Source: Acidimicrobiaceae bacterium (lineage in GTDB: Bacteria; Actinomycetota; Acidimicrobiia; Acidimicrobiales; RAAP-2). Taken from it: a stretch of 48,976 nt of DNA. The first letter of the stretch is position 1, and the number at the start of each line of letters is the position of its first letter. Position numbers and translations under genes: made by a program. Below, piece by piece: positions 11,357 through 17,241 of this stretch. The stretch spans positions 1 to 48,976 of the forward strand of contig PKXJ01000011.1 of NCBI GenBank assembly GCA_003132305.1, in the 5' to 3' direction. The notes beneath the pieces were generated by a model, which ran no database searches, was not told where the DNA came from, and saw only the letters and a program-made list of their open reading frames with translations.

Positions 11357-12295
11357 CTACAGTTGCGCTTCGAGCAACGCGAGTACCTCGTAACAGTCGA
11401 GCACCGAGTGGACTGAGGCGTTTGGTTCGCGCCCTTCGCGCAGCGCCGCAATGAACTCACGGTCTTGAAGCTCGATGCCGTCCATCGAGACGGCGACGTT
11501 CGTGACGTCGACGGGCTCGTCGCGCCCGTTAAAGAGATCGTCGTAGCGCGCGACGTAGGTGCCGGTGTCGCCGATGTAGCGAAAGAACGAACCCAACGGG
11601 CCGTCGTTGTTGAAACTGAGTGAGAGCGTGCAGAGCTGTCCGGTCGCGCTCTTGAGCTGGATGGACATGTCCGTGGGGATGCCGAGCACCGGATGGAGGG
11701 GACCCTGGAGGACGTTCGCCTTGACGATTCGTTCGCGGCACTGGTACTGAAAGAGATCGACCGTGTGCGCGGCGTGGTGCCACAACAAGTTGTCGGTCCA
11801 GCTGCGAGCCTGACCCAGCGCGTTGAGGTTCGTGCGTCGAAAGAAGTAGGTCTGCACGTCCATCTGCTGCAGGGAGAACTCACCGGCGAGCACACGTTGG
11901 TGAATCCACTGGTGCGAGGGATTGAAGCGACGGGTGTGCCCGACCATGCAGACGCGCCGCGTCTCACTTTGCACCGCCGCCACTTCTTGGGCGTCGGCCC
12001 AGTTGTCGGCGAGGGGGATCTCCACCTGCACGTGCTTGCCCGCGCGCATCGTGGCGATCGCCTGCGCCGCGTGGAGCTGGGTGGGCGTGCAGAGAATAAC
12101 GGCGTCGACGCTCTCCATTGCGAGAACGTCACTCAGTTCAGTCGTGGCGTGGGGTACGCCGTACTTGCCGGCGACCTCTTGCGCCTGTTCGAGTCGCCGA
12201 CTGACGACGGACACGACTTCGACGTCGTCGACGCGCGCGAGTGCGTCGAGGTGTTTGATGCCAAAAGCGCCAGCTCCCGCGAGTGCGATGCGCAT
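11357..12295 (-). CDS. ligC: 4-carboxy-2-hydroxymuconate-6-semialdehyde dehydrogenase
   Basis: A 312-residue Gfo/Idh/MocA-family enzyme that oxidises the protocatechuate 4,5-cleavage product (as its hemiacetal) to 2-pyrone-4,6-dicarboxylate with NAD(P)+. The dinucleotide motif ALAGAGAFGIKHLD is at the N-terminus; QVEIPLADNW, MVGHTRRFNPSHQW, TYFFRRTNLNALGQARSWTD and LLWHHAAHTVDLF are, from memory, nearly the same as in Sphingobium LigC. The ATG at 12295 has a strong AAGGAG six bases upstream. It is the last gene of the lig operon, 22 bases after ligB, which makes the dioxygenase subunits next to the enzyme for their product. Confidence 0.95.
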   Translation of the reverse strand: MRIALAGAGAFGIKHLDALARVDDVEVVSVVSRRLEQAQEVAGKYGVPHATTELSDVLAMESVDAVILCTPTQLHAAQAIATMRAGKHVQVEIPLADNWADAQEVAAVQSETRRVCMVGHTRRFNPSHQWIHQRVLAGEFSLQQMDVQTYFFRRTNLNALGQARSWTDNLLWHHAAHTVDLFQYQCRERIVKANVLQGPLHPVLGIPTDMSIQLKSATGQLCTLSLSFNNDGPLGSFFRYIGDTGTYVARYDDLFNGRDEPVDVTNVAVSMDGIELQDREFIAALREGREPNASVHSVLDCYEVLALLEAQL

Positions 12296-12317
12296 TGGTG
12301 CTCCTTAGGTTCGTGAC

Positions 12318-13160
12318 TCAGTTCAAAGCGTCAAGGACGAGGTGACCCACGGCCGTGTTCGACGCGGGCACGTGATAAAAGCGATGAAGTTGGTGCACGT
12401 TCTCGCCCAGTGCGCCTCGCATGATGAACCACATGATGAGTTCAATTCCCTCGGATCCAGCCTCACGGAGGTACTCGAGGTGTCCGATCTGCTTCAGTGA
12501 CTCGGGATCGGCGACGATGCGGTCGAGAAAGTCATGGTCGAAGGCGGAGTTGATGAAACCGGCGCGCGCGCCCTGGAGCTGGTGGCTCATGCCGCCGGTG
12601 CCCCAGACTTGGACGTTGAGGTCTTCGTTGTAACTGAGCACGGCGCGACGAATGGACTTGCCGAGTTCGTAGCATCGATTCGCGGTGGGCTGGGGGTACT
12701 CCACAACGTTCACGGCCACCGGAATGACCCGCACGGGCCAGGCCTCGGGTTGGCCGAACAGTAGCGAGAGCGGGACGGTCAATCCGTGGTCGACGTCCAA
12801 CTTGTTGCAGATCGTGATGTCGAACTCGTCGAGAATGGTCTTTTCCGCGATGTGACAGGCGAGATCGGCGTGGCCGTAGACCAGGGGAACCGGACGCGGG
12901 CCAAATCCCTCGTCGGCGACTTCGAAGTACTCGGCGCAACCAATCGCGAAGGTCGGCAACACCTCGAGCGAAAAATTCGATGCGTGATCGTTGTAGACGA
13001 GTATGACGACGTCGGGCAGGTTCTCGGCGATCCATTTCTTCGACCACTCGTAGCCCGCAAAGACCGGCGCCCAGTAGTCGCTCTTGGTTTCACCCCGGTC
13101 GATGGCCGCCCCCATGGCCGGCACGTGACTGGTCGTGACACCCCCGGTGATTCGCGCCAC
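12318..13160 (-). CDS. ligB: Protocatechuate 4,5-dioxygenase, beta (catalytic) subunit
   Basis: Extradiol ring-cleaving subunit (280 residues, LigB superfamily) that opens protocatechuate between C4 and C5 with Fe(II). His12 in TSHVPAMG and His59 in VYNDHASNF correspond to the iron ligands His12 and His61 of the structurally known LigAB; the downstream [11 protein letters not shown] carries the conserved catalytic His. The GTG start lies two bases after the ligA stop codon, with GAGGG in the ligA end as ribosome site. Its partner LigA is encoded directly upstream, so the alpha-beta pair is co-translated. Confidence 0.96.
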
Positions 13161-15464: not shown

Positions 15465-16558
15465 GAGTCCTCCCACAGGCTGGCCGGCACGAAGACGTCA
15501 CCGCGCATCAAGAGACGCGCCGTTCGCAGAAGCGCTGCGCGCTCCACGTGGAAGACGCCGTTGTCACTACGAACGGTGAGCGTCACGGAGAAGTAGCCCG
15601 AAGGGTGTTCGATGTCCAGCGTAACTTCACCGTCCGCTCGAGGACGGCCGGCGATCTCGTTCGCCACCGAATCCGGCAATAGGCACGCGGTGGCGACGGA
15701 GACCGCGCCGAAGACCCCGATCGCCTCGTGCACGCGATGCGGGATGAAGGTACGAGTCGACACGGTGCCGCCGTGTTGGGCCGGCGCGAGGAGCGACATC
15801 TTTGGAACGGTCGCGTTCGATACGTCGCCGAGGTTCATGACGAGGCCCGCCGCCAAGCGGATCTTCTCTACCTGGGCTTTGACGTCGTCGTTACTTTCGA
15901 TTTCCGAGGGTTCTTCGTAACCCGAAAGACCAACGTCGCTCGCCCGAAGGCAGACTACGGGCATGCCGTTGTCGACACAGGTGACGTGAACGCCTTCGAG
16001 AACGTCGTCGACGTGCCCCGTGGGCAGGAGCGCCCCGCACGTTGAACCCGCGACGTCAAGGAACTCAATGGGAATCGGCGCGTGCGTGCCCGGCACGCCG
16101 TCGATGTGGGCGAGTCCGTCATAGCGGACTTGGCCCGCCGGCGTCTCGATTCGTGCCACCGCGAGGCTTTGCGTATTTTCCATCCAGATTCGTACGTCGG
16201 TAGTGCCGTGACTGGCCGAGACGAGGCCCTCTTCTATGGCGAAGGGGCCCACGCCGGCGAGTAAGTTGCCGCAGTTTTGGTTGTCGGTCACTTCAGGGCG
16301 ATCGGGCCAGACCTGCAAAAAGAGGTAGTCGACGTCGGCGTCGTCGCGCTTCGAGACCTGTACGACGGCGACTTTCGACGTCAGAGGGTGTGCGCCACCC
16401 ATGCCGTCGATCTCACGAAGATCGGGCGCTCCCATCGCCGCCATCAAAACCGCGTCACGTGTTTCGCGCTCACTCGGGAGATCGCGCGCGTGAAAGTACA
16501 GACCCTTCGACGTGCCCCCGCGCAGCACCGAACAGCGAATCGCCCGCTGTGGGGTCAT
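15461..16558 (-). CDS. ligU: 4-oxalomesaconate tautomerase/isomerase (PrpF family)
   Basis: A 365-residue PrpF-family protein (diaminopimelate-epimerase fold). [20 protein letters not shown] near the N-terminus and [20 protein letters not shown] are family signatures; the Cys in NCGN is one of the two usual catalytic positions. In this operon it most likely interconverts 4-oxalomesaconate isomers before LigJ, as LigU and GalD do. An aconitate isomerase role, also known in PrpF, is unlikely given the neighbours. ATG 16558 overlaps the ligK stop by four bases (ATGA). Confidence 0.9.
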
Positions 16559-17241
16559 GACTCCTCGTGGTCTTCGTAGACGAGGCCTCGTTCTACCAAC
16601 TTCTCGCGCATGGTGTAGAGGTCGAGACCAAGTTCGCCACTCGCCAGTCGTTCACGCTTGGCCTGTTCGTTCTCTTCGCGGCTCTTGGCGGCGGCCAGGA
16701 CGTCCTCCGCGCGTTCTCTCGACACGACGACGACGCCGTCGTCGTCGGCGACGATGACGTCACCGGGTCGCACGTAGGCTCCGGCGATCACAATGGGCGT
16801 TTGAACGTTCGCGGGCGTCTCCTTGACGGTCCCCTGGGCGCTAATGGTTTTGGACCAGACCGGAAACTTCATCGTCGTGAGCTCGGCCACGTCGCGCACG
16901 CCCGCGTCAATGACCAGAGCGCGCACGCCGTGCGCCACGAGACTCGTCGCCAGCAGTTCACCGAAGTAGCCGTCGTCACAGGGACTCGTGGGCGTCACCA
17001 CCAAGAGGTCGCCCGGTTGGGCCATTTCGACGGCGACGTGGATGGACCAGTTGTCGCCCGGCGCGACCTCGCAGGTCAGCGCGTTGCCCGCGACGCGCAG
17101 TGGTCGAAAGATGGGTCGAAGGCGGGCGGCGAGGAGACCCGTACGTCCTTGCGCTTCATGAAGGGTGGCCACCCCGTAGTGGGCGAGGGCGTCGACGAGC
17201 GCGAGGTCGGTGCGTGGCGTGTTACGGACGACGACGGCCAT
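16555..17241 (-). CDS. ligK: 4-carboxy-4-hydroxy-2-oxoadipate aldolase / oxaloacetate decarboxylase
   Basis: RraA-fold class II aldolase (228 residues) that splits 4-carboxy-4-hydroxy-2-oxoadipate into pyruvate and oxaloacetate. [20 protein letters not shown] and [14 protein letters not shown] carry the conserved Arg and Asp that bind substrate and Mg2+; [17 protein letters not shown] is also typical of the LigK/GalC group. The C-terminal helix ([19 protein letters not shown]) is extended as in the aldolases and absent from RraA itself. The start ATG has AGGGG five bases upstream and is the first gene of the operon, divergent from pobA. Confidence 0.94.

Follow-up and report, generated by a model that had tools for sequence, protein, structure and literature searches.

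How does an uncultured actinobacterium come to carry a complete set of genes for protocatechuate 4,5-cleavage, and what surrounds these genes in its genome? The window analysed here covers the opening 48,976 bases of contig PKXJ01000011.1 (161,195 bases) in a draft Acidimicrobiaceae genome of 2.9 Mb (35 contigs, 95.5% complete). It contains seven intact, co-directional open reading frames (ORFs), ligK-ligU-ligJ-ligI-ligA-ligB-ligC, on the minus strand from 17241 to 11357. With good confidence, we interpret this locus as an Acidimicrobiaceae operon for protocatechuate meta-(4,5-)cleavage, set in a 15-gene catabolic island. Its lig genes belong to a clade of uncultured Actinomycetota near Alphaproteobacteria, which would most simply stem from an old proteobacterial transfer, with putative later inheritance and whole-island exchange among Acidimicrobiaceae. 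The seven genes are as follows.

16555..17241, minus strand: ligK, 4-carboxy-4-hydroxy-2-oxoadipate aldolase / oxaloacetate decarboxylase (TIGR02798, PDB 3noj)
15461..16558, minus strand: ligU, 4-oxalomesaconate tautomerase / delta-isomerase (NF033377, PDB 6p3j)
14445..15476 (longest ORF), minus strand: ligJ, 4-oxalomesaconate hydratase (PDB 6dwv)
13549..14448, minus strand: ligI, 2-pyrone-4,6-dicarboxylate hydrolase (PDB 4d8l, Amidohydro_2)
13163..13552, minus strand: ligA, protocatechuate 4,5-dioxygenase alpha subunit (TIGR02792)
12318..13160, minus strand: ligB, protocatechuate 4,5-dioxygenase beta (catalytic) subunit (NF009903, PDB 1b4u)
11357..12295, minus strand: ligC, 4-carboxy-2-hydroxymuconate-6-semialdehyde dehydrogenase (PDB 9azo PmdC, OxRdtase_C and GFO_IDH_MocA)

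We assigned the proteins using NCBIfam cut-offs, best PDB matches and Pfam domains. LigA (TIGR02792, 205 bits against a cut-off of 108.6), LigB (NF009903, 484 against 317), LigU (NF033377, 514 against 440) and LigK (TIGR02798, 323.3 against 304.5) each pass an NCBIfam model, and LigU and LigK also match the structures 6p3j (E 2e-126) and 3noj (E 9e-83). LigJ, LigI and LigC passed no equivalog in the NCBIfam search. Their best PDB matches are, respectively, 4-oxalomesaconate hydratase (6dwv, E 3e-175), 2-pyrone-4,6-dicarboxylate hydrolase (4d8l, E 1e-97; Pfam Amidohydro_2) and PmdC (9azo, E 1e-154; Pfam OxRdtase_C and GFO_IDH_MocA). With a family or structure assignment for all seven intact genes, the original prediction, made from the DNA letters before any database search, was right to see a complete one-strand operon: the assignments indicate that it should encode the whole route by which protocatechuate is broken down to pyruvate and oxaloacetate.

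The order of steps is well established for these families. LigAB would cleave the protocatechuate ring, and LigC would oxidize the resulting semialdehyde to 2-pyrone-4,6-dicarboxylate. LigI would then open the lactone, LigU isomerize and LigJ hydrate the product, and LigK would finally cleave the LigJ product to pyruvate and oxaloacetate. Since gallate dioxygenases belong to the same family as LigB (PDB 3wku, E 1e-72), the main substrate could instead be gallate or a methylated gallate, with the operon serving that route. We consider this very unlikely, as the protocatechuate enzyme 1b4u matches LigB far better (E 3e-126), the operon includes genes for LigC and LigI, which belong to the protocatechuate route, and pobA adjoins it divergently. 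In the alignment with 1b4u, LigB His12, His59, His125, His193 and Glu240 correspond to His12, His61, His127, His195 and Glu242, which we take to be iron-ligand and catalytic residues.

The genes are tightly packed, with 4-base overlaps at the K/U, J/I and I/A junctions, a 2-base gap between ligA and ligB and a 22-base gap between ligB and ligC. The U/J overlap is 16 bases if ligJ is taken as the longest ORF. An alternative GTG start at 15464, preceded by GGGAGGA, would reduce it to 4 bases (GTGA), and appears likelier to be the true start. The count of five tight junctions out of six given originally holds with this GTG, and falls to four with the longest ORF.

The host is actinobacterial, as had been proposed. 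Its genome has four WhiB genes, and WhiB was found in 15 of the 20 genomes tested, that is, in all 15 of actinobacterial type (this one and 14 others with actinobacterial-type lig loci) and in none of five proteobacterial ones; in a control set of 14 genomes, it was found in Corynebacterium only. A proteobacterial contig or a binning error might be suspected in a draft of 35 contigs, all the more as the titles of some related records (L043, L048) are implausible. Yet the core genes flanking the island have matches in almost identical order in other genomes of the genus, and the WhiB results and the native composition of the region (below) likewise make such an error extremely improbable. As a separate observation, the lig contigs of L043 (titled Saccharibacteria) and L048 (titled Acidobacteria) are of the Acidimicrobiaceae type, and the genome of L048 has WhiB.

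A foreign composition of the island had been suggested as something to look for, by comparing 11357-26211 with the rest, and we rejected it: neither tetranucleotides nor G+C mark the region as foreign. The tetranucleotide distance of its 5-kb slices to the genome profile is exceeded by 73-92% of 64 background segments, and the whole 15-kb region lies below all 64, although longer stretches score lower by nature. Its G+C content, 61.4%, is typical of the genome. Any transfer between phyla is thus old.

We searched with LigB and kept the best 80 of 594 confirmed matches, a selection in which more distant types are under-sampled. Among these 80, the closest LigB comes from an actinobacterial metagenome-assembled genome (MAG; 82% identity), and several of the closest matches are from palsa and bog samples, judging by record titles. 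LigB matches occur in 14 of 100 genomes of the family, 12 of them (the window's included) with at least 70% identity. In the class, 11 of 345 genomes have matches at E <= 1e-60; the eight carriers outside the family have LigB proteins 57-64% identical to that of the window, and these fall outside its clade. In the phylum, 4 of 396 sampled genomes match at E <= 1e-90, two from the window's genus and two with another lig type. Within the genus, LigC of the window's type was found in 37 of the 99 genomes searched. Carriers have larger genomes (median 2.3 versus 1.8 Mb, Mann-Whitney p 5e-7), with none among 26 genomes under 1.8 Mb versus 37 of 73 at or above this size, in a comparison that uses rounded sizes uncorrected for kinship or completeness. 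In some genomes of another genus of the family, we also noticed a second LigB-like dioxygenase, 45-46% identical to that of the window (L015, L016, L017, L018), perhaps for another substrate.

A recent proteobacterial transfer confined to this one species could account for the high identity of LigC to proteobacterial proteins and for a LigB up to 71% identical to proteins on proteobacterial plasmids. It is scarcely credible given the 37 LigC carriers in the genus, the closer actinobacterial LigB (82%), the conserved neighbourhood of the island among relatives, and the 5-kb slices, of which the tetranucleotides fit the genome profile better than those of 73-92% of the background segments.

We examined the origin of the operon with trees from quick searches, for which the only support is the Shimodaira-Hasegawa-like approximate likelihood ratio test (SH-aLRT); approximately unbiased (AU) tests were built on these trees. 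The trees exclude duplicate loci (L043, L044, L046, L119-L121) and L032, which has no lig genes. The LigC tree unites the full set of 26 near-actinobacterial rows in a single clade (SH-aLRT 98, starred) among alphaproteobacterial rows. The concatenated LigJ-A-B-C tree, which includes 78 of 103 LigB rows and loses one near-actinobacterial row (L026), has 25 actinobacterial rows in one clade (support 86). With a midpoint root, this clade, a Caulobacter row and a sphingomonad-rich set form a group (98, starred) within a starred proteobacterial series. The LigU tree joins 11 of 12 Acidimicrobiaceae rows with three other actinobacterial rows (98, starred), the LigK tree joins 15 with three (97, starred), and the 17 Acidimicrobiaceae rows stay together in the LigI tree (support 91). 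Other lig types of Actinomycetota lie elsewhere in the LigJ-A-B-C tree: Arthrobacter, Streptomyces and a further Acidimicrobiia genome (L037, L035, L122) fall together with two rows from Betaproteobacteria, L035 and L037 being in a different starred group from the window's operon, and two more (L127, L129) sit with a gammaproteobacterial set.

The under-described actinobacterial lig clade that had been postulated is thus apparent, nearest to alphaproteobacterial sequences in both the LigC and LigJ-A-B-C trees. Its position is most simply explained by an old transfer from proteobacteria into uncultured Actinomycetota, with the root unproven. Three results weigh against this explanation. The support of 86 for the joint actinobacterial clade is unstarred, and the single-gene trees of LigB, LigJ and LigA split the Acidimicrobiaceae rows. 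Furthermore, with LigB paralogues as the outgroup, an alternative root beside the actinobacterial clade, which places Pseudomonadota and the far types together on one side, fits equally well and is not rejected (p-AU 0.506), so that nesting among proteobacteria is the simpler reading rather than a proven one. Of the two options originally offered, lateral transfer or an under-described branch, the distinct branch stands, while the direction of transfer is unproven.

The reverse history, in which the operon goes back to the ancestor of a wide actinobacterial branch, with Alphaproteobacteria of this lig type acquiring it from Actinomycetota, would agree with the grouping of the 25-26 actinobacterial rows, the p-AU of the alternative root and the region's native composition. 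It is nevertheless unlikely, considering the rarity of the genes in the phylum (the 4 of 396 genomes above), the several starred proteobacterial branches outside the actinobacterial clade under the midpoint root, and the different lig types that other Actinomycetota have elsewhere in the tree.

We rejected gene order as a mark of novelty. Of 18 Acidimicrobiaceae-type loci in other genomes, 11 have the order K-U-J-I-A-B-C (some of the other seven are cut by contig ends), a recurrence far beyond chance, and three of seven loci of other near actinobacteria have it too. Loci in a second genus of the family have K-J-I-A-B-C (two loci), the tautomerase before ligK (one) or the full order (one). However, the order also occurs in 11 of the 77 remaining loci, some others of which end at contig ends, and all 11 are titled Pseudomonadota. 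These clusters (among them Microbulbifer, Hyphomonas, Shewanella and Woeseiaceae loci) are identical to the window in order, and 58-74% identical to it over the seven proteins.

The initial view that the order differs from the Sphingobium lig genes is correct to the extent that sphingomonad-type loci are mostly split, although the 11 Pseudomonadota loci share the window's order. The lig system of Sphingobium sp. SYK-6 has the same seven enzymes as the window, and the PDB entries that best match the window's LigB, LigI, LigJ and LigU bear the names of enzymes in this pathway; most of the matching structures presumably come from SYK-6. Sphingomonad-type loci mostly have I-U-K divergent from J-A-B-C (i'u'k'JABC in 17 loci), in contrast to the single co-directional run of seven in the window, and two of them (L034, L038) have a LysR gene between the divergent units, whereas the window's island has no LysR gene. 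The Comamonas-type pmd genes form a single unit like those of the window, whose LigC has PmdC as its best PDB match. Betaproteobacterial loci differ from the window in having J-K-I-A-B-C with no tautomerase match (L109, L113) or U-J-K-I-A-B-C (L115, L117).

Arthrobacter keyseri (pcm) and Pseudarthrobacter Sphe3 (pca) resemble the window in having 4,5-cleavage in an actinobacterium. In the Arthrobacter type, LigA and LigB are fused (L037), whereas they are separate ORFs with a 2-base gap in the window, and the order is J-K-I-AB-C, on plasmids, instead of K-U-J-I-A-B-C. Furthermore, L037 groups with betaproteobacterial types and not with the window's clade. According to one article, the Sphe3 pca cluster is one transcription unit, its 4,5-dioxygenase is a single-subunit enzyme, and 4,5-cleavage is almost exclusively proteobacterial, with A. 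keyseri, Sphe3 and other Actinobacteria as exceptions (PMC8431788).

The suggestion that 4,5-cleavage is unusual for actinobacteria thus needs qualifying, since these exceptions were already known (PMC8431788), but it fits this genome, in which a search found no PF00775 intradiol (3,4-cleavage) dioxygenase, at a completeness of 95.5% with which a miss is possible. Because of this result, 4,5-cleavage is probably the genome's only route for protocatechuate. Search listings from one open-access collection showed no report of 4,5-cleavage for Acidimicrobiia. The available part of a paper on polyphenols at Stordalen lists Actinobacteriota among the phyla enriched in polyphenol metabolism, and its main text, to the same extent, has no words in protocatechu- or Acidimicrob- (PMC11153144); the available text of an Arctic Ocean paper similarly has none in Actinobacteri- or Acidimicrob- (PMC9789639). 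The enzymes and mechanism are already known; what is added here is the host lineage, the clade and the island exchange described below.

Within the genus, LigC and LigB distances correlate with the distances of a core protein, GcvPB (Mantel r 0.56 and 0.66, p 0.0005, n=25 genomes). Of 30 carriers examined, 11 have lig and gcvPB on one contig, at a separation of about 31-41 kb. The nearest neighbour by LigC is the nearest by GcvPB in only 10 of the 25 genomes. Part of this disagreement may be explained by a mismatch between island and core genes that we observed in one trio, the window and genomes G838 and G802, using rounded identities. For the 13 flanking core genes that the three share, the window's copy is in every case more similar to that of G838 (median 87%) than to that of G802 (71%). 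The island shows the opposite: 12 of its 15 genes are more similar to G802 (medians 80% for G802 and 73% for G838), with two the reverse and one tie. The arrangement differs likewise: the island directly follows a TPR gene in the window and G802, while a pgi-gnd-zwf block stands between the TPR gene and the island in G838; in the window and L039, this block is on the ligC side. G806, whose island is on another contig, shares the TPR-pgi order with G838 and shows similar island identities. We read this as a putative exchange of the whole island between species within one chromosomal neighbourhood, on the basis of the one trio with G806 in agreement.

A broader proposal, to which we attach about even weight, is that this meta-cleavage operon lineage is common to uncultured Actinomycetota (Acidimicrobiaceae, and MAGs titled Streptosporangiaceae, Nanopelagicales and others) through one old transfer between phyla, and that in Acidimicrobiaceae it became the centre of a 15-gene aromatic-catabolism island, which species exchange as one unit within a single chromosomal neighbourhood and which all the smallest genomes of the genus lack. 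With the operon in over one-third of a genus of uncultured Acidimicrobiaceae, the genus is likely a consumer of lignin-derived acids in peat, whose protocatechuate route would be missed by 3,4-cleavage marker genes. The exchange, if true, would be a concrete case of trait movement in uncultured actinobacteria.

The island (11357-26211) comprises the seven lig genes, pobA, an aldehyde dehydrogenase, a Rieske oxygenase and five liv-type ATP-binding cassette (ABC) genes. Beyond the operon, its features are as follows.

17242..17384: spacer between the divergent ligK and pobA, with the candidate control element GCTGTCTAGTAG at 17346
17385..18566, plus strand: pobA, 4-hydroxybenzoate 3-monooxygenase, which makes protocatechuate (NF006091; PDB p-hydroxybenzoate hydroxylase)
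18579..20123, minus strand: aldehyde dehydrogenase, probably for 4-hydroxybenzaldehyde / vanillin (PDB 9jw2)
20156..21190, plus strand: Rieske oxygenase, probably a vanillate (aryl-ether) O-demethylase with a presumed reductase partner (Rieske and VanA_C)
21289..26211, plus strand: liv-type ABC importer of five genes (Peripla_BP_6, ABC_tran x2, BPD_transp_2 x2)
21289-22734, plus strand: its binding protein (Pfam Peripla_BP_6)
22748-23488 and 23488-24255, plus strand: its two ATPases (Pfam ABC_tran x2)
24252-25127 and 25099-26211, plus strand: its two permeases (Pfam BPD_transp_2 x2)

The start of pobA is 143 bases from ligK. PobA passes NF006091 (533 bits against a cut-off of 351) and matches p-hydroxybenzoate hydroxylase in the PDB (E 3e-114). 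The PDB protein closest to the aldehyde dehydrogenase is 4-hydroxybenzaldehyde dehydrogenase (9jw2, E 1e-98), and the window's enzyme passed no NCBIfam cut-off among the 25 models shown. The Rieske oxygenase has the Pfam domains Rieske and VanA_C, and dicamba O-demethylase is its closest PDB match (E 1e-48). The importer genes, like the other island genes, are syntenic in G838 and G802, and their position suggests that the importer probably takes up an aromatic acid. The 15 genes could accordingly act as a funnel: the importer would bring in aromatic acids or aldehydes, and the aldehyde dehydrogenase, the VanA-like Rieske oxygenase and PobA, whose families are clear and whose substrates are presumed, would convert these to protocatechuate for ring opening. 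This picture is weakened by PobA scoring under the stricter TIGR02360 cut-off (459 versus 538.7 bits), and by the lack, among the 15 island genes, of a VanB-like reductase and of a regulator gene. A genome-wide Fer2 search for the reductase partner gave six matches, none in the island.

The ligK/pobA spacer offers a lead on regulation. The motif RCTGNNNAGTAS occurs in 9 of 11 such spacers (all but L030 and L039) and at two other places in the 185 kb of sequence from these loci, counts that refer to related loci and to a motif chosen after viewing those same spacers. An exact 20-mer containing ACTGAACAGT is common to five ligK/pobA spacers, the window's not among them. Spacers noted in other loci along with the window's (17242-17384) are at L022:8609, L023:7874, L042:5892, L045:5984 and L047:4165. 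The motif is a possible operator of some regulator.

Two further features of the window lie outside the island. Between pgi and ligC is a three-gene cassette (7639-11251) encoding a glycosyltransferase, a protein with no Pfam match and a GH130 phosphorylase. We considered this cassette as part of the island and rejected it, as none of the 15 GH130 stretches fetched from the genus's other genomes includes lig genes, and 13 of these 15 have all three genes together, away from lig. A GH130 relative at E <= 1e-80 is present in 20 of the 61 genus genomes searched, the window's own included. Finally, a secreted protein encoded at 43899-45092 resembles, by eye, an S53-type (sedolisin-like) acid protease.

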